Shown piece after piece: positions 7,413 to 23,091 of a stretch of 64,000 bases of DNA. The position numbers and the translations under genes are program-made. The first letter of the stretch is position 1. Every line of letters starts with the position of its first letter. Source of the DNA: Funiculus sociatus GB2-C1 (GTDB taxonomy: Bacteria; Cyanobacteriota; Cyanobacteriia; Cyanobacteriales; FACHB-T130); the NCBI RefSeq assembly GCF_039962115.1, contig NZ_JAMPKJ010000001.1, positions 1-64,000 of the forward strand. Reading direction: 5' to 3'. The notes beneath the pieces are model-generated. The model ran no database searches and had not been told where the DNA came from. It worked only from the letters and a program-made list of their open reading frames with translations.

Positions 7413-7805
7413 TTAACTTTTTATTTCCATTGCCACAGCAACTAAATCCTCAATTTTCTTAATATTTGGATCGCCAGCTAAATAACCAATTCCGCGATGC
7501 AAATGGAGGCGAAATTGATTAGCTAAAGTTTCTCGTTCAGTACCTAAGCCATCATTGTGACAGCGTTGTTTCAGGGCGATTAACAAAATATCAGACATTT
7601 CTCCGCCAAAGACGCGCCATGTCATCTCGACATTGCTATCAGCAGGAATTGGCACTGGTGAAGGAATACTTGGTTCGGAGAGAGAACGACAAAACGCCCA
7701 ACGGCAAAGGATATTCCACTGCTCTATTTTAGTGCTGCGCTTTAGCTTAGTGAGCTGCTCTTTGGCAGTTTGGGAAAGTTTAATTCTGTCAAGTGGTGGT
7801 TCCAT
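7413..7805 (-). CDS. dndE: DNA sulfur modification protein DndE
   Basis: Small DndE subunit of the phosphorothioation complex that swaps a non-bridging backbone oxygen for sulfur; DndE binds nicked DNA as a tetramer in characterised systems. The 130-residue sequence has the typical opening PPLDRIKLSQTAKEQLTKLKR, the WNILCRWAFCRSL segment, TWRVFGGEMSDI, and the LHRGIGYLAG signature toward the C-terminus. It is last in the minus-strand order dndC-dndD-dndE. An unusually long gap of 362 bases separates it from dndD, so it may have its own promoter. Confidence 0.93.
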   Translation of the reverse strand: MEPPLDRIKLSQTAKEQLTKLKRSTKIEQWNILCRWAFCRSLSEPSIPSPVPIPADSNVEMTWRVFGGEMSDILLIALKQRCHNDGLGTERETLANQFRLHLHRGIGYLAGDPNIKKIEDLVAVAMEIKS

Positions 7806-8167: not shown

Positions 8168-10171
8168 TTAGTCCCAGAAATAACCTGGTTCTATTACCGT
8201 CTGCTGTTTAGCGGAGTCGTATTTTAAGAGATATTCACGAGCGATCGCTTCATTTTCGTGCAATTTATCAACCTCATTTTTTCCTATCTCAGTATCAGTA
8301 GAAAGTAATATTACCTGATGACTGGCTGAGGGAAAGTATCTCTCTACCAAATTAGCTCTATGTGAGGAATCTAAACGTCCGAGAGGCGTATCAATTGCCA
8401 CTGGCAAATTGCGCCCGGAAACCCGCGCTAATCCCCACAGAAAACTGATGGCTAGTAGTTGTTTCTCCCCGGCTGAAAGGCGATGTTTAGGTACTGACTT
8501 ACCCTGTAAATCGTAAAGGGAAAGGCTGAAGCTGTTGGTGTCAATTGCCACGCGATGCACTAAATCTGATTTGTGCAAAAGATATCGAAAACACTCTGTC
8601 ACCTCAACTTCTAATTTATTGAGTTTTCTCAACGTCAATCGTTCGCGGAAAACCTTGAGTGTTTCTTGAACTTTAGCAGATGCAGCAATAATATGCTCGT
8701 TATTTTTTCGATCAATATTTTGCTCAGTATATTGTTTTAAGTCCTTTTTTAACTTAGCGATCGCAGCGTCTAATTCAACTAAACGACGATTAGCTGTTTC
8801 ATATGCGGCCTTAGCTTCAGCAACTTTATTTTGTGCTTCTTTAAGTGCTACAAGCAGATGATTATAATCTTCAGGTGATGCAGCAGTCTGTATTTGCCTT
8901 TCCAGCCTTATAATATCTTCTTCTTTATTTTTAATAATTCCTATTTGCTGCTTTGCGAGATTTTTGGCATTTTGCAAGTAGTAAAGGATATTACCCAATT
9001 GGCTCAAGCTTTCAGTATCAGCTAATAACCACAGTTTTTCAGGCTGGATAAAATGTGAATTCAATGTATCTACATCTTGGTCAAGAAAAGTTTTAATTTT
9101 TTCAATTTCTTCTTCTGAAATACCCACCTGACTAATCCAATTCAGCAGGCGCTTATCCCGTTCAAACAATATATCCCGTGCATTTTGTGCCTGTTGAATG
9201 CGAAATTCTTTTTCTGCTTGGGTTTGTGCCTGAGTAAGTAAAGGTTCAATCAAGGCTAGCGGTAAAACATCTGCCGCTAAGTCACACATTCCTTGACGAG
9301 CTTCATCAGCTTCCGCTGTCTTTTGGTGACGCTGTTTATCTAGCTGGCTACGTTCTCCTGCAATTTTACCTCCTTCAGATATGAATTTATCAAAAGCTTC
9401 TTGCTGCTCTTTTTCGCTTTCATCCAACTTCTTTTTTATAGTCTTTAAATTTCCTATTTGCCCATCATATTCTTCTTGTTGGTGCTTTAGCTTTTGTTCC
9501 ATCTCCTCTAAGTTGGCTAAGTCTTGAGTATCTGCCAGCTCCTTACGTTTGCGGTTGACTAATATTTCTAAATCACTGGATAAACGTTCAGCCAGTTCTA
9601 GCCCTAAAAGTCCGCGAATCGCATCAACTACAATAGGTGGGGGTGTTTCCTGTTCTGCAAGTTCTTTAACTTGTTCGCCATCAAATAGAAATAAGTTAGA
9701 GATCCCTAATGGCAGTAAATTTTCAATATAATCGTCCCAAGTATTAACTAGCTCTATTCTTAGCCAATCGTCCTTTTTGGCGATATCTAATTCCAAAATT
9801 CCTAAATGGTCTTTACCATCTTTAGGATTTCTTTCCCAAGTTCTTACGATGCGGTAAATTACAGGTTTGTCATTTTCAATGTGTTCAAAAGCCAACTCAA
9901 CGCGGGTTTTTTCAGATGGTAGAGTGTGGCTGTTAACGCACTGGGAGAGAAAATCGCTATAGCTCAAGTTGCCGCGAGTGGAACATTGAGCGCGATGTCC
10001 ATAAAGCGCGAGGCGAATAGCATCCATTAAGGTAGTCTTTCCGCCGCCATTCATCCCACCTAATAAAATAATTGGGCGACGAGAATTGTCATCAACTTGT
10101 GGATAAAGATTGATAACTTGATGTCCGCGGTAGGGGCCAAAATTTTGCAGTACGAGTTCAAGAAATATCAT
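8168..10171 (-). CDS. dndD: DNA sulfur modification protein DndD (SMC-like ATPase)
   Basis: SMC/Rad50-type ATPase of the Dnd complex, thought to open or nick DNA for sulfur insertion. The 667 residues show a Walker A near 38-47 (GGMNGGGKTT), the DndD-type motif NLFLFDGEQ near 160-170, long coiled-coil arms in the middle with no CxxC zinc hook, the ABC signature LSAGEKQ, and Walker B with D-loop (LPVAIDTPLGRLD). Length is standard. It lies 132 bases after dndC on the same strand; that gap holds a short CCCAG/CTGGG hairpin. Confidence 0.96.
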   Translation of the reverse strand: MIFLELVLQNFGPYRGHQVINLYPQVDDNSRRPIILLGGMNGGGKTTLMDAIRLALYGHRAQCSTRGNLSYSDFLSQCVNSHTLPSEKTRVELAFEHIENDKPVIYRIVRTWERNPKDGKDHLGILELDIAKKDDWLRIELVNTWDDYIENLLPLGISNLFLFDGEQVKELAEQETPPPIVVDAIRGLLGLELAERLSSDLEILVNRKRKELADTQDLANLEEMEQKLKHQQEEYDGQIGNLKTIKKKLDESEKEQQEAFDKFISEGGKIAGERSQLDKQRHQKTAEADEARQGMCDLAADVLPLALIEPLLTQAQTQAEKEFRIQQAQNARDILFERDKRLLNWISQVGISEEEIEKIKTFLDQDVDTLNSHFIQPEKLWLLADTESLSQLGNILYYLQNAKNLAKQQIGIIKNKEEDIIRLERQIQTAASPEDYNHLLVALKEAQNKVAEAKAAYETANRRLVELDAAIAKLKKDLKQYTEQNIDRKNNEHIIAASAKVQETLKVFRERLTLRKLNKLEVEVTECFRYLLHKSDLVHRVAIDTNSFSLSLYDLQGKSVPKHRLSAGEKQLLAISFLWGLARVSGRNLPVAIDTPLGRLDSSHRANLVERYFPSASHQVILLSTDTEIGKNEVDKLHENEAIAREYLLKYDSAKQQTVIEPGYFWD

Positions 10172-10303: not shown

Positions 10304-11920
10304 TTAATTTCCATCATCTATATTTCTGGCTTGGAATTTGATACTTGCCCAAGTTTCTTGTTTTACAGTTTCACTGTTATCTTCATCGACAGCATCCCCC
10401 AAGGTTAGCTGTTTTACCTTGGGAATATTGCCTTCATGAACTGCTGTTTTTAGATCGCGTTTCAAGTGGGCGTTTTTTATCGCTTCTTCTGGCGATCGCG
10501 AACTCGTCTCAAAGCATTTCTCTAGAGTGTCGTATATCCCGACGCGGCGAGACTTCTTGCGATACTCGTGTTCTGTGCCTAGCAGCTTCGCGATGAGTTC
10601 CAAGTGCATCTTATCGTCGTCGCAGATTTCCTCTAGCACAGCCCATTCATCGCTACCTAATAAACTATTGCCAGCACCAGGACGCGGATCTTTGAAAGGT
10701 TCGCCTGTGACTTCCTCATAGATGCGAGGTAAACTATCATCAAACTCGTGTCTTTCTTCTAACCAGATGCGACGAATTTCGCTCATTTCTTCTATTGTAA
10801 TTAGCGTAATGTCACGCATATTTTCTGGTGCTGTGCGCTGGATTTGTGTTTGAACAGTAAGGAGTTTTCTAAGCCAATCCTCCCGCGCTTCTTTAAGATA
10901 GGGGCCAGGAATAGGCTCAACCGATATCTCACCCTCTAAGTTGCGCTCATAGAGTTGCACTTCACCAGTTCTCCGCCGGAAATCACGGCGCTCACGGTTT
11001 TCTTCAGCATCTAATTCCATACGGAAATCAAGTAGAGGTTGCATCCACTCTTTCTCTTCGTCATTCTGAATCATTGCTGTCAGTGATTTATCCTGACTAA
11101 CCATTGTGCAAACCCAGCAACCAAAACGAGAGCTACCACAACTAGGAGTAGATGTATCAACAACTAAAGGACATTCATTATCAGCGGTAGCACCCCGATA
11201 CAGGGCGAATAAGTCTTTGTTACTGTATCCCCAAGGGTTTTGCCACTGCATTAGATAAATCCAAACTTCGTCGTTCTCCCAGTCTTCAATAGGGCTATAA
11301 ACCAGGGAGTTGGGCAAGTTCATGTTAGGGCTGAGGTGATCGCGTACCCGTTGAGCTTCCATTTTTTTCATTCTGTTAGCACGTTTTGTGCTTTCAGCTT
11401 TGCGAGTACCCAAGACAAGAATGGCTTCACCGCTGGAGCGAATAACATTACGAATAAAGCGGTTAGAGGGATTAATTTTGAGGCGTTCTGTACACCAGCG
11501 AAATTTTCCTCGCGGCGCTGGATACCCTTTACCAATCAAACCTACCCAAAATGTCTCTTTGAATTCTGGTTGTAGCAGATGGGGTTCAAAGGGCAGTCCT
11601 TGCGCTTCAGCCTCAGACTTCATCTGTTTAAGGGAATTGCGTACCCAGGCAGCAACTATTGGGTTCTCTACCAGCGTGTCTGTTGTGATAACATATATCG
11701 TCTTAGTCCGCTTTTCGGGCGGGAGGGAAGCGATCGCATTCCAGATCAACTGTAAGGTTGCACTAGAATCTTTCCCGCCACTATAGCCGACACACCAAGG
11801 TATTTCGTCTAAGCAGTATAACTCTTGGATTTCAGTGGTGAGAGCTTGGATATCATCCACTAATTCTGCCACAGTACGCGCTGGCTGATTTTTATTTTCT
11901 TGCTGTTGCGTTGTAGCCAT
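10304..11920 (-). CDS. dndC: DNA sulfur modification protein DndC (PAPS-reductase-like)
   Basis: DndC activates sulfur or the DNA backbone with an ATP-pyrophosphatase fold and an Fe-S cluster. The PP-loop SGGKDSS is at residues 47-53. The cysteine cluster typical of DndC lies near 248-275 (ECPLVVD, then PSCGSSRFGCWVC). The 538 residues fit the family. It is the first gene of the minus-strand dndCDE set and is transcribed away from dndB across a 163-base shared region. No dndA desulfurase is present, so sulfur presumably comes from a chromosomal IscS/SufS; that is inference. Confidence 0.96.
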   Translation of the reverse strand: MATTQQQENKNQPARTVAELVDDIQALTTEIQELYCLDEIPWCVGYSGGKDSSATLQLIWNAIASLPPEKRTKTIYVITTDTLVENPIVAAWVRNSLKQMKSEAEAQGLPFEPHLLQPEFKETFWVGLIGKGYPAPRGKFRWCTERLKINPSNRFIRNVIRSSGEAILVLGTRKAESTKRANRMKKMEAQRVRDHLSPNMNLPNSLVYSPIEDWENDEVWIYLMQWQNPWGYSNKDLFALYRGATADNECPLVVDTSTPSCGSSRFGCWVCTMVSQDKSLTAMIQNDEEKEWMQPLLDFRMELDAEENRERRDFRRRTGEVQLYERNLEGEISVEPIPGPYLKEAREDWLRKLLTVQTQIQRTAPENMRDITLITIEEMSEIRRIWLEERHEFDDSLPRIYEEVTGEPFKDPRPGAGNSLLGSDEWAVLEEICDDDKMHLELIAKLLGTEHEYRKKSRRVGIYDTLEKCFETSSRSPEEAIKNAHLKRDLKTAVHEGNIPKVKQLTLGDAVDEDNSETVKQETWASIKFQARNIDDGN

Positions 11921-12083: not shown

Positions 12084-13682
12084 ATGAATGACAGTGCATT
12101 TGACCCGACCGCTGATGTCCCTAGCGAATACCAGAAGGGGGAAATCCGAGATCAACAGATACTCGCTGTCCTGCTGGAGAACTATCTTGGGAGGAACGAT
12201 CAGATTTTCGTTCAGAAAACTGAGATGGGTGGTATTGAGGCTTATGTAGGCTCTGTCACCCTGGAATGGTTTGCAAATCGGGTTAACTTCGCCTCTTGCT
12301 TACCCCTGCTTCAGAAAAAATACAATCCAGAGACGGGTAACATCGAGATTGACGCGGATAGCATTGATGAAATTCAGCAGCGTCCGCTTGATTGGTCGCG
12401 TCAAGCACCCCTAGTGCAGTATTTGGCGGCTCGGAAAAATCACAAGTTTCCGCCAGTTCTCGTAGTTATTAACCAACCTTGGGTGGATACTCCCAAAGCT
12501 GGTGAGTGGGATAGCCACAGACGAGCCACAAAATCTACTACCGAATTCACGCCACTGGATAAAGATGGTAAAGTCGGTTTGCTCAACCTTTCTGAGGCGG
12601 ATGTAACCGTTTATGCGCTGGATGGTCAACATCGACTGATGGGGGTGCAGGGTTTGATGGAGTTGATTAGAACTGGTAAACTCCAACGGTACAAAAAGGA
12701 TAAAACTCCTTACGACACTTTCATTACGCTTGCTGACTTGATAGAACAGTATCAAGTCGAACCTGCTTATCTGCAAAGCTTACCCAAGGAAAAAATTGGT
12801 ATTGAGTTCATCTGCGCGATCGCTGCTGGGGAAACCCACGAACAAGCAAGGCGACGGGTGAGATCGCTCTTTGTTCATGTCAACCTGATGGCTACACCTT
12901 TGAGCAAAGGACAGTTAGCACAGCTGAATGAGGATGATGGGTTTTCGATTGTTGCTAGAAAAATCGCTGTAACCCATCCGCTTTTGCAACAGCACTCAGA
13001 TCGCAAGCCCCGCGTTAATTGGAATAGTGCGACTGTTGCAGCGAAGTCAACGGTTTTGACGACGTTACAAGCTCTCAAAGAGATGTCTGAGCGATATTTG
13101 GGGCAAAAATTTCCTCACTGGAAACCCTTGGAAAAAGGTCTAATTGCCATGCGGCCGGAGGATGAGGAACTGAAGGAGGGAATAGAGGATTTTCAGAAGC
13201 TTTTCGATAATTTGGCAAACCTTCCAAGTTATCAGATACTCGAAGACATGGATACGCCGGAATTACGACGCTTCAGCTTTGAGAAGGATGGCGGTGAGGG
13301 AAATATGCTTTTCCGTCCTGTTGGTCAAGTGGCTTTAGTTCAAGCTTTGGGAATCTTGGTATTTAGGAAAGGTTTATCGCTGGAAGACATTTTTAAGAAG
13401 CTGCGGAAGTTCGACCTGGAAGGCGGATTTAGTGGTATGGAGTACCCGCAATCTCTGTGGTATGGGGTTTTATATGACCCAAATAAAAAGCGGGTGCAGG
13501 TTTCTGGAAGGGATTTGGCGGCGAGGTTAGTAGTTTACATCTTGGGTGGAATTCAGGATCAGATGGAACGTGCGGAACTTCGCAAGGCTCTGGCTGATGC
13601 AAGAACTATTGAAAAACAAACGATGGGCTTTGATGGTAAGTTTGTTGAACCGAAAGCAGTAGGGCTTCCACCAGTCCTTTAA
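12084..13682 (+). CDS. dndB: DNA sulfur modification protein DndB (DGQHR domain)
   Basis: DGQHR-domain protein acting as transcriptional regulator of dnd genes and modulator of phosphorothioate density in studied systems. The motif VYALDGQHRLMGVQG puts DGQHR at residues 180-184. At 532 residues it is longer than many DndB proteins (about 360), with extra sequence before and after the core. Compatible features include VHVNLMATPLSKGQ, a typical downstream block. It is divergent from dndCDE and precedes the HNH/DGQHR pair. Confidence 0.92.
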   Translation: MNDSAFDPTADVPSEYQKGEIRDQQILAVLLENYLGRNDQIFVQKTEMGGIEAYVGSVTLEWFANRVNFASCLPLLQKKYNPETGNIEIDADSIDEIQQRPLDWSRQAPLVQYLAARKNHKFPPVLVVINQPWVDTPKAGEWDSHRRATKSTTEFTPLDKDGKVGLLNLSEADVTVYALDGQHRLMGVQGLMELIRTGKLQRYKKDKTPYDTFITLADLIEQYQVEPAYLQSLPKEKIGIEFICAIAAGETHEQARRRVRSLFVHVNLMATPLSKGQLAQLNEDDGFSIVARKIAVTHPLLQQHSDRKPRVNWNSATVAAKSTVLTTLQALKEMSERYLGQKFPHWKPLEKGLIAMRPEDEELKEGIEDFQKLFDNLANLPSYQILEDMDTPELRRFSFEKDGGEGNMLFRPVGQVALVQALGILVFRKGLSLEDIFKKLRKFDLEGGFSGMEYPQSLWYGVLYDPNKKRVQVSGRDLAARLVVYILGGIQDQMERAELRKALADARTIEKQTMGFDGKFVEPKAVGLPPVL

Positions 13683-13793: not shown

Positions 13794-14597
13794 ATGAATG
13801 GTACTAATCCAGGACAGGAACTACGCAACTTTTTAAAAGAGCTTTATCCTCATAATTATAACAATACAGATTTTAAGGAAATAGAATCTTTTATTTCAGA
13901 AATTGACAGCGCTTTAATAGCTAATGGTAATTTTTTTCAAATAGTTTATGAAAGCAGTATAAATTATATGGTAAGGAGATTTATAAATACTGCTGAGTAT
14001 TTAAAAAGGAAGTATGAATCAGACGAGTTTCCACCAGAAAAATTTGTAGAGGAGCTTAGACGTTTCATTATAAAAGCAACCCGTATTCCACGAGACAAAA
14101 CCGAAAAACTTTTAGTTTTATTACAGGCTTGTCTTCAGTCAAAAGGCAGAAAAGTAAAACCACCTCGTAAGAAACGCCTGCTCAAAGAATATCAGGCTAA
14201 AAATGAACTGCGTTGTTATATTTGTGGCAAGGATTTAGATGAACAGGAATCAGAGATTGAACATATATGGCCAAGAACGATGGGTGGTGCTACTGAAGAT
14301 TTCAACCTCAAAATATCTTGTTCTATTTGCAACGATAAAAAACAGCACTATATTGATGCAAGTGACTTTCACTATGAACAAATATGCTTGGTAAGTGATA
14401 AGAGTGATGAAAACTTTTCTAAGGAAATGAAAAAAGAGTATAGAATAGCGGTATGGGCAAAAAGTGATTATAGTTGCACAGTATGTGGAGAGCCAGCTTC
14501 AATTGTGGGTACATTAAATTTTGGTCGCATCAACCCAGATGACAGCTGGCACTTTCTTAACACTGAAGCCTATTGCGATGAACATACTCCAGAATAA
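13794..14597 (+). CDS. HNH endonuclease, Dnd-linked
   Basis: A 267-residue nuclease candidate. The N-terminal 120 residues are helical with no domain I recognise; 118-130 is very basic (KGRKVKPPRKKR). The HNH core follows: CYIC (141-144), EIEHIWPRTMGG with His157, Asn171, then CSICNDKK (176-183). A second zinc-binding pair CTVC appears near 228-231, with Cys and His close to the end. It lies 111 bases after dndB and 31 bases before a DndB-like gene. Phosphorothioate-dependent HNH enzymes exist (ScoMcrA class), but I see no sulfur-binding domain here, so a role in sensing the modification is inference. The gene is AT-rich and free of HIP1. Confidence 0.85.
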   Translation: MNGTNPGQELRNFLKELYPHNYNNTDFKEIESFISEIDSALIANGNFFQIVYESSINYMVRRFINTAEYLKRKYESDEFPPEKFVEELRRFIIKATRIPRDKTEKLLVLLQACLQSKGRKVKPPRKKRLLKEYQAKNELRCYICGKDLDEQESEIEHIWPRTMGGATEDFNLKISCSICNDKKQHYIDASDFHYEQICLVSDKSDENFSKEMKKEYRIAVWAKSDYSCTVCGEPASIVGTLNFGRINPDDSWHFLNTEAYCDEHTPE

Positions 14598-14616
14598 GTT
14601 TTTAACTAGACATAAT

Positions 14617-14623
14617 GAGGAGG
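14617..14623 (+). promoter_or_regulatory. Strong ribosome binding site fixing a GTG start
   Basis: GAGGAGG sits 5 bases before GTG at 14629. This decides the start of the DGQHR gene over in-frame ATG or TTG codons upstream, which would overlap the HNH gene. Confidence 0.75.
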
Positions 14624-14628
14624 TTTTT

Positions 14629-15792
14629 GTGGAAGATAGAATTTACTTTGGTTGTTTTGTAAGGCAACGCATAGATAAGAATACTACTCCTTTCTTTGTA
14701 TTTTATGCTCGTGTAAAAGATATTAAGCAGTGGGCTAGAGTTCGGCGAGTGGAAGATTCTACAGACGGTACCCAACGCTTGTTACGAGAAACTAGAAGCA
14801 AGGCAATAACTAGATTTGTAAAATCTGGCTTCAATAATACCATTCCTAATAATATTCTTTTGGCATTTGAGCCTGACAAAGCAAAATTTTCTTCTTTAGA
14901 AGAAAAGTTATCTGGATGTCTTTCTGAAGCTAACTTTCATAATGGTTGTGAACAACAGATGGAATGGGGAACACTTGAGTTCTCCTGTAATACTTCTGGA
15001 AATGACTATTGTGCATATGTAGTAGATGGACAACATCGCCTCTATGGTTTGTCAGAGTTTGATTCTGAAGATTTACCTATACTTGTTGTGAGCTTGGTCA
15101 ATGCTAGTATAGAAGAACAGGCATTTCAGTTCATAGTGATAAATAATAAAGCTGTAAGAGTTCCTACAAATAATGTTAAGGCTATAATTGCTAATTTAAA
15201 TGAAGAAGAACTTCAAAATCGCCTTTTAAAAGCGGGCGTAAAATATGGAAATACATCACCTACACTCCGAGATGTCAATGATCTAGATATAAGCCCTTTT
15301 CAAAATTTACTTAAGTGGCCATACAATAAAGAGGGTAATCAATTAGTTGAAATTGCAGCAATAGAACAATCTATAAAATATTTAAGAGCAATGTTTACAT
15401 TTTTGGATGAGGATGAAGATTCTTTAGTTGAGATTTTTTGTGCTATATGGCGAGTTATAAAAGACAACTATACAGAATTATGGGGTAAAGAAAACACATT
15501 CATGAAGAAAGTAAATATCAATGCCTTGAATGAGTTCATTACTGATCGTTTGAAGTTTGCATGGGAATTAAGCCTTGTAGATATTTTTAATTCTGAACAA
15601 TTAGAAACACAGGTTTTACATATTGTTAAATTACTTCCTCAAGAGTTTTGGAAAGCAGAATGGACTATTAAGCTTCAAGATAGTGCTAATGTGAGAAAAC
15701 AAATAAAAGAAGATTTGTCAACGTTAGCAGACAATTGCAGGCTAAGAAGGCCTTGGAACGAAGATTTAAATTTACCTATAACAGAAGGGTAA
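14629..15792 (+). CDS. DGQHR-domain protein, second DndB-like
   Basis: From the GTG start the product is 387 residues. VVDGQHRLYGL puts DGQHR at 133-137, and the block EQAFQFIVINNKAVRVPTN after it matches the general DGQHR/DndB layout. It is shorter than and clearly divergent from dndB 950 bases upstream. It follows the HNH gene after 31 bases, so the two are probably one transcript. DGQHR proteins bind DNA or nucleotide cofactors; here it might direct or restrain the HNH nuclease, which is inference. The gene is AT-rich and lacks HIP1 sites. Confidence 0.85.
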   Translation: MEDRIYFGCFVRQRIDKNTTPFFVFYARVKDIKQWARVRRVEDSTDGTQRLLRETRSKAITRFVKSGFNNTIPNNILLAFEPDKAKFSSLEEKLSGCLSEANFHNGCEQQMEWGTLEFSCNTSGNDYCAYVVDGQHRLYGLSEFDSEDLPILVVSLVNASIEEQAFQFIVINNKAVRVPTNNVKAIIANLNEEELQNRLLKAGVKYGNTSPTLRDVNDLDISPFQNLLKWPYNKEGNQLVEIAAIEQSIKYLRAMFTFLDEDEDSLVEIFCAIWRVIKDNYTELWGKENTFMKKVNINALNEFITDRLKFAWELSLVDIFNSEQLETQVLHIVKLLPQEFWKAEWTIKLQDSANVRKQIKEDLSTLADNCRLRRPWNEDLNLPITEG

Positions 15793-15817: not shown

Positions 15818-16291
15818 TCAAGACAAAAACTTGCTCAAGTCAAATTCCTCGTCTTGCTGCTCTTTGTACGTTCGTTCATAACTTAAAAATAATAAAATTC
15901 GCTCTGAATAATCTACTGATCCGCGCAACTCATTTTGCAGGATCTCTAGTCCACCATTAGCGTACTCTTCAAAGATATGATTGCGTTTAGCTTCATATTC
16001 TTCTTCATTAAGGGATAAAATTTTTATATCTTGAGTTTCAGTAATGCCTAATAATTTGATTACCCAATCATGACCCATTGTTGCAAAATACTCTAACCTA
16101 ATGGGAGAAGGTTCTCTTTTAGAAATTTCCCCTAAAGGTACACGCTTTTTATGCTTTGCACCTAAAGCTGCTGCAAACACGATCGCATCAGCATAGGTTT
16201 GGAAAGGTCCTGTTGCACCATCTGCCGATGTTAAAGCCTTCACTAAATCTGCTTTATCTTTAGCAACTCTAATTCTGCCCGTTTCAGCCAT
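15818..16291 (-). CDS. Dnd system-associated protein 4
   Basis: A 157-residue soluble protein matching my recollection of the family called dnd system-associated protein 4: opening RIRVAKDKADLVKALTSADG, then GPFQTYADAIVFAAALGAKH, and an acidic C-terminus. The family was defined by co-occurrence with dnd genes, and its biochemical role is unknown. It is convergent with the DGQHR gene (25 bases between them). It supports extending the Dnd locus to this point. Confidence 0.75.
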   Translation of the reverse strand: MAETGRIRVAKDKADLVKALTSADGATGPFQTYADAIVFAAALGAKHKKRVPLGEISKREPSPIRLEYFATMGHDWVIKLLGITETQDIKILSLNEEEYEAKRNHIFEEYANGGLEILQNELRGSVDYSERILLFLSYERTYKEQQDEEFDLSKFLS

Positions 16292-18478: not shown

Positions 18479-19135
18479 TTAATTTTTGCTAAATCTTTGG
18501 AGTAACCAGCGAGTAATTGCCCCATCATCCTCTGTTTGACTCCGTTGCAGTGCTTCTTTAACTAAAGCTATTTCTAATCCTGGTAATACTAGCGACTCGT
18601 GTATTTCACCGCTGCGTCCTTCAGAGATAGAGAATGCGATCGCATCCCTTAAATTAGCATCAACAACCCAATATTCCCCTACTCCCGAACGTTCGTATAA
18701 TAACCGCTTTCGCCCCAAATCATCACTAATAGTAGATGCACCGATTTCTACCGCCAACGTAGGGGGATCGTACTCATTCAAATCAACAGGTGAATTAGTT
18801 TCAGGAGGTATCTTCAATTCCGAACCGATGTAGAAAGCCAAGTCAGGTTGAAATTCATCTAAACCTGCTTTTCTAAAACTGGTATTTGTGAACACAACAA
18901 TTGGAATATTTTTAATAGTTGCATAAAGAAGAATAATGTAGGAAACAATTGAATTTTGTCGTCCGTGTCGAGGCCCTACTGCTGCCATTTCAATCCTCAT
19001 GTACCCTTTATGGTAATAGAACCTTCCTTTGTCATAATCTGGGCTATTAGCAAATACTAAAAACTCATCCCAACTGGCTTTTACCCAGGTATCTGTCACC
19101 AAATCCTGCACATTAGGCGCTGAACTAGAAACCAT
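18479..19135 (-). CDS. Uma2-family (PD-(D/E)XK) nuclease-like protein
   Basis: A 218-residue member of the Uma2 family, very abundant in cyanobacteria and predicted to have a PD-(D/E)XK nuclease fold. Motifs seen are the opening SWDEFLVFANSPDYDKGRFYY, the core QPDLAFYIG, then PPTLAVEIGASTISDDLGRKR (acidic and Lys/Arg residues of the fold) and GVGEYWVVDA. Its first 11 bases overlap the 3' end of the upstream ATPase gene, so it is cotranscribed and could be a nuclease partner. Uma2 genes are so common here that this may be chance. Confidence 0.88.
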   Translation of the reverse strand: MVSSSAPNVQDLVTDTWVKASWDEFLVFANSPDYDKGRFYYHKGYMRIEMAAVGPRHGRQNSIVSYIILLYATIKNIPIVVFTNTSFRKAGLDEFQPDLAFYIGSELKIPPETNSPVDLNEYDPPTLAVEIGASTISDDLGRKRLLYERSGVGEYWVVDANLRDAIAFSISEGRSGEIHESLVLPGLEIALVKEALQRSQTEDDGAITRWLLQRFSKN

Positions 19136-21194
19136 AATCGACCTCTACAATTTCCGTATATTCAAACTCATTCGGGCTTTGCCGCACCAAAGAATATATA
19201 TTTCCATTTATCTCAATTGAATCTTGTTCGCAGTCAGGTTTAGAAGAATAATAAATCAATACATACTCTCTACCTATTCTATCGGCTATTTCTTCGGCAA
19301 CTTCACCCCGCCACTGAGTTTTTGTCACCAACACTACCAATTGATTTGCTAATTTTGGAATTATCTTAGCAATTTGTCGCCGATAAATTTCATCCAAACT
19401 GCCAAACGGAGAATCCATCACAATCGGGAAGGTGTTGCTGTCTGGAACCATCAGCATTTTGTTTTGGCTCCATTCTCGCACCTTGTCAATAATGCTACCG
19501 ATAAACGATAGACTGAGAATTTGATTTTCGCCCGTAGAAGCCGCAACAGGAGCATCTAAACCTGCGGTATTTTCCACTAGAGTCAGCTCGTATTTCTCGC
19601 TAATTCTGGGGATGTAAGGCGTAAAAGAAATGTCCGTAAATATTTGTTGTACTCTTTTCTCTAACTCTAAGCGAAACTGTTGTTCTTGCAATATCTTCAC
19701 TTTCGTTAAACGTTCAATTGCCTCTTGAGTTGCAGCAATGCGTCGCTGAGCTAATGCTTGCTTTTCCTCATTCATTTTATGTTTAGAAATTTGTTTCCCT
19801 AAGTCTTCAATTTCAGCTTTTAAATTTATAACTTGCTGCTGATTTCCTCCTTGATCTAGCGTTAGCTCTAAAATTCTGGATTCAATTTCATCCAACCGTT
19901 TTTGTAGGTTGCGAATATCATCACTTGGATCTTTTCTCAATTTTTCTTGAATTTTATCTAATTCCGCTTCTATCTGAGAAATATCTTGTCTAAATTTACT
20001 AATATTAGCTTGCTCTCTGTCAATTTCTTCCCAAAAAGCCGGAGCTTGCTTATCAATTTCATCTACCTGAGCTATCATGCGAATTGCTGTTTCTTCTACA
20101 GCCGCAATTCCCGCTTTATCTAGCCAACCGCTCACATTTGCATGAGCATGATTTCCATCGTGCAATTCTCCACCACAAATACAGCGTTTAGAGTTCAGTA
20201 AATCTTTAACAAATTCTCGCGAAATTCCAGTCGTTAACTCGCCTCGCTGCTTCAAATTATCCACAATTGTCCGAAATTGAGCGGTGGTTTCCGATAGCAG
20301 TACCGTATATCCCCGCGTAGAAATTGCTTTTTTCAGTGCTTCCTTGCTTCTTTTAAGGTTTTCTAGGTTGGATGCTTTCAGGTTTTCTAATTCTTGCCGT
20401 CTTTCTTGCAACTGTTTAGCTGCACTAAGTTCGCGCAAACGGTGACTGGTTTCTTTTTTTAAGGTTTGTTGGTTTGACAATTCTTGGATTATCTCATGTT
20501 GACGCTGGGCAAGTTGTTCGCTTTCCTTTTCGAGTTTTTGTTGCTGTTTTAATAGTTGTTTGGTTTCGGAGTCGCCAATCGCTTCTAACTCACTTCTGAG
20601 AGTTTTTTCAGCTTCTTTCAGATGCTTAATAGAGTTATTTAACACTTCCACACCCAGAAGCTTTTTAGTAGCTTCGGCAATTTCGGCTTTTTTATCAGAG
20701 CGAACTATTTGTTCAATTCGCTCTCCGTCAAAGAAAAAATACTGATGCAAACTACCTGGTAAAATTTGATTAATTATATCTTCTGGATGTTCTCGCGGCA
20801 GTAACCAGCGCCCATCATCTCCAGCTACATACATCAGTAATTGACTTTTGCCAGCTTCAAAGTCAGTTTCATTTTTATAAACACGGCAGAGGCGTTGAGC
20901 TTGATAGCGTCTACTGTCATGTTCCCAGCCAATTTTTACCCAGCATTCGACAGCTTCGCCCGATTTCGCTTCTGCGATCGCTCTCTTATTCACTAATTGC
21001 TCAACTGAGGCAAAAGCCGCGCTAAATTTCTCGTACAGCACCCAAGAAAACGCATTTAATAAACTGGTTTTTCCGGCGCCGTTGTTGCCATGAATAATAG
21101 TAGTATTGCGAACATCTCCACTGGCTAACAAAATTTCTGGTGTCTTGCCATAGAAGGAGCGAAAGTTGCAAAGTTTGATTGAAGTAAGCTTCAT
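19125..21194 (-). CDS. SMC/Rad50-like AAA ATPase, DndD-related
   Basis: A 689-residue ATPase built like DndD. Walker A GNNGAGKTS is at 36-44. The motif QYFFFDGERIEQIV near 150-163 matches the FDGEQ element in the dndD product. Long coiled coils flank a CxCGG-type turn (RCICGG, near 337) that may be half a zinc hook. The ABC signature is STGENQ, and Walker B with D-loop is FPIVMDSPFGSLDE. Its ATG overlaps the stop of a 57-residue ORF (ATGA) and its end overlaps a Uma2 gene. With the helicase upstream it probably forms an effector arm of the phosphorothioation system; that is inference. Confidence 0.85.
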   Translation of the reverse strand: MKLTSIKLCNFRSFYGKTPEILLASGDVRNTTIIHGNNGAGKTSLLNAFSWVLYEKFSAAFASVEQLVNKRAIAEAKSGEAVECWVKIGWEHDSRRYQAQRLCRVYKNETDFEAGKSQLLMYVAGDDGRWLLPREHPEDIINQILPGSLHQYFFFDGERIEQIVRSDKKAEIAEATKKLLGVEVLNNSIKHLKEAEKTLRSELEAIGDSETKQLLKQQQKLEKESEQLAQRQHEIIQELSNQQTLKKETSHRLRELSAAKQLQERRQELENLKASNLENLKRSKEALKKAISTRGYTVLLSETTAQFRTIVDNLKQRGELTTGISREFVKDLLNSKRCICGGELHDGNHAHANVSGWLDKAGIAAVEETAIRMIAQVDEIDKQAPAFWEEIDREQANISKFRQDISQIEAELDKIQEKLRKDPSDDIRNLQKRLDEIESRILELTLDQGGNQQQVINLKAEIEDLGKQISKHKMNEEKQALAQRRIAATQEAIERLTKVKILQEQQFRLELEKRVQQIFTDISFTPYIPRISEKYELTLVENTAGLDAPVAASTGENQILSLSFIGSIIDKVREWSQNKMLMVPDSNTFPIVMDSPFGSLDEIYRRQIAKIIPKLANQLVVLVTKTQWRGEVAEEIADRIGREYVLIYYSSKPDCEQDSIEINGNIYSLVRQSPNEFEYTEIVEVDYGF

Positions 21195-21364
21195 TTTACA
21201 ACTTCCTTTACAATTGCTAAAATATCATTATTAATATGTCCAAGACTTTTCTTATCTAGCCTGCCTTTTTCTAACTGGCACACTCGTTCGATAATTTGTT
21301 GCACTTCCGGTGAAGCTGACTTTATTGGCTCTTGCACATCATTTGTATTCGCTTCGTTTGTCAT
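21191..21364 (-). CDS. 57-residue protein coupled to the DndD-like ATPase
   Basis: An ATG at 21364 opens a frame of 57 codons whose TGA overlaps the ATPase start codon as ATGA, a classic translational-coupling arrangement. The product (MTNEANTNDVQEPIKS ... LAIVKEVVK) is soluble, highly charged, and probably two helices: an acidic, disordered N-terminus, then VQQIIERVCQLEKG and HINNDILAIVKEVV. No domain is recognised. Position and coupling suggest a small partner subunit of the ATPase. Reality as a gene is inferred from the overlap and clean helical composition. Confidence 0.65.
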   Translation of the reverse strand: MTNEANTNDVQEPIKSASPEVQQIIERVCQLEKGRLDKKSLGHINNDILAIVKEVVK

Positions 21365-21433
21365 TTTTATGCCACCCTGAAAGGTTACTTAATTTTAGCT
21401 TAAATTTATAAAAGCATAAAGTGGTAAGAGGAA

Positions 21434-21535
21434 TGAACCGCAAAGACGCAAAGAAAAGAGGGAACAAGAGAAAAGAAACTAGAAGCAAATTAATATTCTC
21501 TCTTTCTCTGCGTTCTAAGCGTCTGGAACGGTTGG
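21434..21535. repeat. Imperfect inverted repeat, MITE-like
   Basis: The left arm AACCGCAAAGACGCAAAGAA and the right arm (reverse complement of TCTGCGTTCTAAGCGTCTGG plus AACGGTT) resemble each other as AACCG..AGACGC..AGAACGCAGAG. Both are familiar cyanobacterial intergenic repeat sequences. It occupies the space between the helicase gene and the 57-residue ORF. Confidence 0.5.
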
Positions 21536-21555
21536 TTTCTCATTTCTTAGATAAT

Positions 21556-23091
21556 TTACAAATCCAACAATTCATAGCGCTTTTGCAAAGCTAACAATTT
21601 CATTCTGGCTTCTCCTGCATTGTCAGCTAAATCGGCAAATTCTACAAAGCGCCGCAACTCCTTTCGCAGCAAATTTCTCTCTACTTCAAAAGTGTCTCTA
21701 TCTAAAGTTGGAGGCAGTACAATTGTGTCAAATAGAGTAGCGCGTTGCTTGCCTGGATGAGGGCGCAAAATTCGCCCTCGACGCTGAATAAATTGGCGCG
21801 GATTGCTACTACTCGCCAAAATTACCGCGTTTTGAATTGCTGGAATATCGACACCTTCATCTAAACAACGAATAGCAACCAAACCCTGTAATTCGCCATT
21901 TTCAAATTGTCGCCGCAAATTCTCTCTTTCTGACAAAGGTGTTTCGGCAGTGTAGGTATTAACGCGATACCCTAGTTCTTCTCCCAGAATTTTAACAACA
22001 GCTTTGAATTGGCGTGAAACGAAATTATTTGAGTTAGCGAAATCGCTATGTACGGAACCATCGCCGCAATAAAATAAGGTGTGGGAAGTATCCAGGCGTT
22101 GACTCATTAACTCGCGCAAAGCTTCTAACTTATTAGCAGCAGCGCCAATTAACCTCGCCCGCTTCATCAACAACGGCTTCAATTCTTCATTGTCTTCAAA
22201 ATTTGCGGCAATATTATCCCGTTGTTTAAACAGAAGATGTCTGCCAATACTGGCACTTAGTTTGGTATAAGTACGCGCTTCCGCTTCTGTTAGTTCTACA
22301 AGTATGGGATAATAAAGATAATGTACCAGCGCCCCCTGTTGAATTGCATCTTTCAGGGTAAATTCTGGTTTTATAACTGTGCCAAAGTAATCAAATAAAG
22401 ATTGCGTACCTGCATCATCAAAATAGCGTTCTGGTGTTGCCGAAAGTCCTAAGCGCAACCCAATACTAGAAGGCAAACTTTCCTCTAAACGTCGTGCGCC
22501 GAGGTTATGAGCTTCGTCTCCCACAATTAAAGTTTTTGGGGGAAAATACTTTAATTGGGACTGCAACCCCTCACCGATCAGTGTGGAATTTGTAGTAATG
22601 ACTGTGAGAAAATGTTGGTTGCCAGAACGCAAGTTGTAAAGTTGCGTCGATAGCTGACTTTGCCAGTTGCGGACATTCTCAAAAGCTAAGACTGGTTCTA
22701 ATCCAAATTTCTCGCATTCTCGCGCCCATTGCGTCACCAAATGCCGATATGGGCAGACTATCAGCAACACTCGCAAGCCGATTTGTTGATACAGTTCAGT
22801 TGCGATCGCTAATGCCGCAATAGTCTTGCCGCTACCAGTCGCCATCTTCAGCGTACCACGCCCTTTGTTGGCAAACCAATTAGCAACAGCTTCCCGCTGA
22901 TACTGTCGCAGCTGAATAGATGGTGGCATTCGGGGACATCCCTTTCGCGGTGGATTTCCCTCCGTTGAGTAGCTACCCTTATTTTCGCCCGCTACAGGTA
23001 ATCTTAATCTGAACTGAAGTCCTTCAAATCGGGGAGTTGCCTTGGGGGGAATCGTAGGCGTTAGTTTCGGGGCATTGTAGGCGGCATTCAT
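21556..23091 (-). CDS. DEAH-box helicase, DNA phosphorothioation-system restriction type
   Basis: A superfamily 2 helicase of 511 residues. Walker A ATGSGKT is at 84-90 and DEAH at 192-195 (LIVGDEAHNLGARRL). SAT motif LGLSATPERY follows, then LDEGVDIP, and motif VI FIQRRGRILRP. The pattern matches the family described as DNA phosphorothioation system restriction enzyme, found by co-occurrence with dnd genes. The first about 55 residues are Pro-rich and weakly conserved-looking, so a later start (near Met55) is possible. It is the most upstream gene of the minus-strand helicase / small ORF / ATPase / Uma2 series. There is no obvious nuclease domain, so cutting must come from a partner or a cryptic site. 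Confidence 0.85.
   Translation of the reverse strand: MNAAYNAPKLTPTIPPKATPRFEGLQFRLRLPVAGENKGSYSTEGNPPRKGCPRMPPSIQLRQYQREAVANWFANKGRGTLKMATGSGKTIAALAIATELYQQIGLRVLLIVCPYRHLVTQWARECEKFGLEPVLAFENVRNWQSQLSTQLYNLRSGNQHFLTVITTNSTLIGEGLQSQLKYFPPKTLIVGDEAHNLGARRLEESLPSSIGLRLGLSATPERYFDDAGTQSLFDYFGTVIKPEFTLKDAIQQGALVHYLYYPILVELTEAEARTYTKLSASIGRHLLFKQRDNIAANFEDNEELKPLLMKRARLIGAAANKLEALRELMSQRLDTSHTLFYCGDGSVHSDFANSNNFVSRQFKAVVKILGEELGYRVNTYTAETPLSERENLRRQFENGELQGLVAIRCLDEGVDIPAIQNAVILASSSNPRQFIQRRGRILRPHPGKQRATLFDTIVLPPTLDRDTFEVERNLLRKELRRFVEFADLADNAGEARMKLLALQKRYELLDL

Follow-up and report, generated by a model that had tools for sequence, protein, structure and literature searches.

The window, a 64,000-nucleotide stretch of the cyanobacterium Funiculus sociatus GB2-C1, carries on its forward strand an HNH endonuclease gene (13794..14597; ATG start, 267 aa; PF14279 HNH_5 and PF01844 HNH) followed by the gene of a DGQHR partner protein, probably of the ParB/Srx superfamily (14629..15792; GTG start, 387 aa; TIGR03187). 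A 31-nt spacer separates the two (14598..14628, forward strand) and contains the Shine-Dalgarno sequence GAGGAGG (14617-14623), which ends 5 nt before the GTG start; the short gap and strong ribosome binding site given in an earlier note on this DNA are therefore accurate.

The pair lies in a cyanobacterial dnd locus, dnd being the DNA phosphorothioation (PT) system. Upstream are, on the reverse strand, dndE (7413..7805), dndD (8168..10171; TIGR03185, 709 bits), and dndC, which encodes the phosphorothioation sulfurtransferase (10304..11920; TIGR03183, 720 bits), and, on the forward strand, the first DGQHR-domain gene of the locus (12084..13682; 532 aa), which occupies the dndB position. The dndE assignment is based on operon position and homology, with homologues at the matching position in other cyanobacterial dnd loci (e.g., L061, 83% identical). 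The protein in the dndB position falls short of the DndB equivalog model and sits with other cyanobacterial homologues on a very long branch. Directly downstream of the pair is the gene for dnd-associated protein 4 (dnd_assoc_4; 15818..16291, reverse strand; TIGR04062, 204 bits). Farther on, a PbeC/CxC-type ABC ATPase (19125..21194, reverse strand; PDLC02753, 1156 bits) and a PbeA/dnd_restrict_1 helicase (21556..23091, reverse strand; TIGR04095, 665 bits) make 19125-23091 a second candidate PT restriction module beside the dnd genes. Elsewhere in the same genome (G000), contig C32 (L042:986-12941) holds a mixed Dpd/Dnd-looking island with a divergent DndB-type gene between DpdD-like and DpdJ-like genes; no dpdA was seen within the 14 kb read.

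The pair is AT-rich, as had been noted earlier, with a GC content of 33.9% versus 45.2% for the window, which places it among the lowest 0.24% of 2-kb stretches. The lack of HIP1 octamers, also reported at that time, is real, but HIP1 is missing from 13% of the window's 2-kb stretches as well, so its absence is not significant as evidence of acquisition, and the low GC content is the real signal.

The HNH protein consists of a helical N-terminal domain (residues ~1-135), a beta-beta-alpha-metal core with a zinc knuckle, and a C-terminal C..C/C..H tail. Residues 141-189 match PF14279 HNH_5 with an E value of 8e-14, and the predicted structure (pLDDT 92.6) has strands at 153-157 and 172-176 and a helix at 177-183. 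The core residues are C141, C144, H157, N171, C176, C179, N180, and K183, the first six of which are invariant across 33 HNH homologues, while N180 (>90%) and K183 are nearly so. With H157, N171, and N180 on a beta-beta-alpha-metal core, the protein belongs to the His-Me finger nucleases, and Foldseek matches its model to the HNH nickase 4h9d with a probability of 1.0. The catalytic site assumed by the earlier note is thus supported by both residue conservation and the modelled core. The all-helical N-terminal domain returned no known structural match. Profile searches and significant structure matches revealed neither a sulfur-binding (SBD)/wHTH domain nor an SRA domain in the HNH protein.

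The partner protein scores 118.8 bits against TIGR03187 (cutoff 58.85) and contains three motifs, Q49R50, D133GQHR137, and F168xxxN172, that are conserved in 29-33 homologues. Its structural model has a pLDDT of 85 and a modest pTM (0.53), and yields repeated weak matches to ParB/sulfiredoxin folds, none below an E value of 0.001. The partner had been taken for a second DndB-like protein, an assignment that is rejected by both profile and phylogeny: the DndB equivalog TIGR03233 gives no match at E ≤ 1, TIGR04172 reaches 51 bits where 450 are required, and in a tree of 64 rows the DGQHR proteins of such pairs form a single clade (97/93) that is nearest to DpdB and away from DndB, although several long branches limit deep placement. 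The first DGQHR protein of the window is likewise distant from this clade. DpdB is also the nearest named family by profile, at 87.6 bits, far under the NF041060 cutoff (300 bits).

A scan of genome contigs, one genome per species, with the DGQHR alignment recovered a clade of 36 loci (L061-L096; E ≤ 1e-34) that is clearly separated from the remaining matches (about 1e-12 and weaker) and spans Cyanobacteria, Chloroflexota, Planctomycetota, Verrucomicrobiota, Bacteroidota, Acidobacteriota, and Pseudomonadota. The HNH gene is directly upstream of the DGQHR gene in 33 of these, and intact loci have start-to-stop distances ranging from about -14 to +37 nt. Two of the other loci are broken cassettes, L065, in which the HNH gene and the start of its partner are deleted, and L089, in which an IS5 element lies where the HNH gene should be; in L094, the HNH gene was not found. 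A further broken cassette, L037, has its HNH and DGQHR genes split by an IS5 element. A relative of the same family (G002) carries the complete locus, and among 386 cyanobacterial genomes the partner gene is present in one further genome, again alongside an HNH gene. The pair also adjoins dndEDCB on a Pseudomonas aeruginosa plasmid, and on an Agrobacterium vitis plasmid it lies, interrupted by an IS5 element, within a Dpd island (dpdA, dpdB, dpdD-K, and queCDE). Two other Dpd islands, L098 (9311-11678) and L103 (11204-13371), contain overlapping genes in the reversed DGQHR-to-HNH order with divergent partners and may represent another lineage of this gene pairing. Viral contigs contained distant DGQHR proteins only, none of which had an adjacent HNH gene in a profile check. 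A separate family of DGQHR proteins of ~750-800 aa, whose genes are immediately followed by a weakly helicase-like gene, occurs in L106, L107, L109, L111, L114, L120, and L130; neither dnd nor dpd genes lie near these loci.

The two genes evolve together. For 29 loci, the pairwise distances of HNH and DGQHR proteins show a correlation of 0.76, and none of 2000 permutations exceeded 0.41. Across 16 PT loci, the rank correlation (rho) between HNH and DGQHR is 0.90, whereas the correlations with DndC are 0.35 and 0.42, and the cassette therefore moves as a unit. The joint arrival proposed for the two genes accords with this rho and with the position of the HNH gene upstream in 33 of 36 loci. Lower GC content than the surroundings is common among mobile defence genes, and the pair is below its flanks in 28 of 28 loci. 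The HNH and DGQHR genes are a mobile cassette and not a local coincidence. Low GC content and patchy distribution, together with the frequency of homing nucleases among HNH genes, would also suit a mobile or homing HNH element inserted beside a DGQHR gene; this is highly improbable, given that the two genes remain neighbours in seven phyla, whichever of them comes first, that the helical N-terminal domain is conserved and the HNH and DGQHR histories are congruent, and that neither an intron or intein nor a pattern of insertion sites was apparent.

The cassette is strongly associated with DNA-modification systems, namely dnd and Dpd, the latter being the system that places 7-deazaguanine in DNA. 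Modification genes occur within the stored 10-kb flanks of 32 of the 36 pair loci, of which 21 are PT (dnd and/or pbe) and 11 are Dpd; one locus counted as PT, L078, is at a contig end and has pbe genes only. Among the more distant DGQHR loci of the same scan, dnd or dpd genes are nearby in 3 of 43, two of which are the reversed pairs L098 and L103. The Fisher p value for 32/36 versus 3/43 is 2.7e-14, which takes loci as independent when L081/L082 and L061/L065 are related, although a contrast of this size is robust to that. Of the four exceptions, L069 and L070 have dndC elsewhere in the genome, while L079 and L094 are on contigs cut short and neither dndC nor dpdA was found in their assemblies. 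All 12 cyanobacterial carriers possess dndC, against a background of 94 of 386 (p 4e-8). Since 11 of 36 loci are in Dpd islands, the cassette is not dnd-specific; of what the earlier note expected from the neighbourhood, the tie to modification holds and exclusivity to dnd does not. The pair would, by that note, have been discredited by wide occurrence away from dnd genes or by HNH residues that form no catalytic site, and neither was observed, because the pair is tied to modification systems and the HNH active site is conserved.

A stand-alone Type IV restriction enzyme that targets foreign modified DNA, sharing defence islands but uncoupled from the host mark, would have the HNH plus DGQ(H/Q)R architecture of GmrSD, which cuts phage DNA bearing glucosylated hydroxymethylcytosine (PMC4619093), and the movement of the cassette independently of DndC would suit it too. 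It is nonetheless improbable, because the association with dnd and dpd is specific (the 32/36 versus 3/43 contrast above) and because two carriers outside the islands nonetheless have dndC elsewhere in the genome.

Within the clade, PT- and Dpd-linked DGQHR members interleave such that two changes of state are needed, and grouping all PT-linked members as one clade is rejected (p-AU 0.004); the cassette has therefore switched modification system. In favour of an effector role, some islands have the pair but lack the usual restriction genes: of 23 PT-linked genomes or records, dndH was detected in 1, and of 13 Dpd-linked genomes, dpdJ is missing from 4. For cyanobacteria, the scarcity of dndH is uninformative given its presence in only 1 of 386, and no mutual exclusion of the pair and DndFGH is therefore claimed.

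The kinship to DpdB raises the main rival explanation, a role in modification, because a function in base insertion has been proposed for DpdB. In PMC10853773 and PMC12839542, DndB is presented as an ATP-dependent PT regulator, and DpdB is presented as the ATPase that serves base insertion. The partner could accordingly be a third DpdB/DndB-type ATPase that helps to target or limit modification, with the HNH protein nicking DNA for base exchange or sulfur insertion. This is unlikely, though less so than the Type IV alternative. The pair accompanies DndB, or both DpdB copies, rather than replacing them. Only 2 of the 94 sampled cyanobacteria with dndC carry it, so it is not required for modification. 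Moreover, it is difficult to envisage one enzyme serving two chemistries that are unrelated, and there is no tight co-evolution with DndC.

The closest parallels to the pair combine a DGQ-x-R domain with an HNH nuclease. In SspE and DndI, a D-G-Q-Q-R motif forms the NTPase site that gates an HNH domain in a single chain that reads PT (PMC9646914, PMC11662687), and GmrS and DGQHR domains share three motifs, QR, DGQ-x-R, and FxxxN (PMC4619093). DndI from Salmonella (PDB 9JFL) resembles the pair in having an HNH nuclease beside dndBCDE and a DGQ-x-R NTPase unit of ParB fold, a fold and activity only predicted for the pair, and it works with modification genes without DndFGH, as the pair would. 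However, DndI is one chain of DUF262 (DGQQR) and DUF1524, while the pair comprises two genes of the DGQHR and HNH_5 families, and neither of the DndI domains is matched significantly in its proteins by Pfam cutoffs: PF03235 (DUF262/GmrSD_N) reaches 16.2 bits, below its cutoff of 33.2, and DUF1524 (PF07510) is not matched, with HNH_5 and HNH matched instead. SspE, in which PT is sensed by a DGQQR NTPase at the N terminus that controls an HNH nickase at the C terminus, is likewise a fused protein of the DUF262/DUF1524 families and belongs to sspABCD single-strand PT. In the Type IV enzymes GmrSD/BrxU, GmrS (DGQQR, ParB/Srx) and GmrD (HNH) can be separate proteins, as in the pair, but GmrSD targets foreign modified DNA and has no dnd/dpd tie. 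DpdB, the nearest named family and tree sister of the partner, differs in that two copies of it share an island with the pair, and no description of a DpdB with an HNH partner was found. DndB/TIGR04172 proteins have in common with the partner a DGQHR domain and the dnd neighbourhood, but form a separate clade. Finally, the PT-dependent SBD-SRA-HNH enzymes of the ScoMcrA type are HNH nucleases linked to dnd loci, but the pair's HNH protein contains a helical domain in place of their SBD/wHTH and SRA domains.

Having the same two parts as SspE and DndI, in separate genes and with a similar tie to the host mark, the pair appears to be a split modification-coupled effector. The best reading by analogy is that of a split counterpart of the fused SspE/DndI/GmrSD proteins that lies outside those families (HNH_5 rather than DUF1524, and DGQHR rather than DUF262). 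As a two-part antiviral restriction effector working with the host DNA-modification system, a function to which we assign a probability of about 0.6, it would sense modification much as SspE, DndI, and GmrSD do. The HNH protein would be the nuclease, probably a nickase, with its helical N-terminal domain as the likely docking or DNA-binding part, and the DGQHR protein would be a ParB/sulfiredoxin-fold NTP-binding regulator responsive to the host mark. This mark would be the phosphorothioate made by DndCDE here and the 7-deazaguanine base from DpdA/DpdB in other islands. Contact of the DGQHR protein with marked self DNA may alter NTP turnover and thereby release or restrain the nuclease, such that unmarked phage DNA is cut. 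The data themselves establish the gene pair, its co-evolution, its linkage to two modification chemistries, the conserved catalytic and motif residues, and the HNH fold; the HNH-DGQHR complex, its NTP hydrolysis, recognition of the mark, which way the switch works, and the restriction of phages are inferred. Weighing against this assignment are the partner's closeness to DpdB, its modest structural model with weak ParB/Srx matches, the absence of any identified binding site for PT or deazaguanine, and the Pbe-type restriction module that the window already carries.

The same components could instead act in abortive infection, in which the DGQHR protein, on sensing that the cell is infected or has lost its modification, would allow the HNH nuclease to damage host DNA, so that the cell dies. 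Unrestrained DndFGH and DndI do damage PT-deficient host DNA (PMC11662687), but the sequence gives no reason to prefer suicide to restriction, and such an outcome is very unlikely. If the pair is instead the proposed restriction effector, one two-gene family may have been re-fitted to two unrelated self marks through its DGQHR NTPase gate and thus be a portable reader-cutter, a tentative proposal.

Between them, two surveys record HNH genes near both types of system. The one on dnd neighbourhoods includes HNH in its list of nucleases and describes a wHTH-SRA-HNH type (PMC10853773), and the Dpd survey reports HNH genes near islands without a restriction operon, including LW23 (PMC11888242), whose island contains the reversed pair L098. 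The HNH-DGQHR pair was not found described in the passages available from either, nor in the open-access main texts searched, so its novelty is provisional.

The functional assignment bears on a recurrent gap in these systems. Many dnd loci occur without DndFGH, and some dpd islands occur without the dpd restriction operon. Where either is missing, the pair is a testable candidate for the nuclease that cuts invading DNA. If this is true, the DGQHR/ParB switch would be retunable from a backbone sulfur to a modified base, and DGQHR proteins, for the most part classed as regulators or as ATPases of insertion, would also have a role in restriction.
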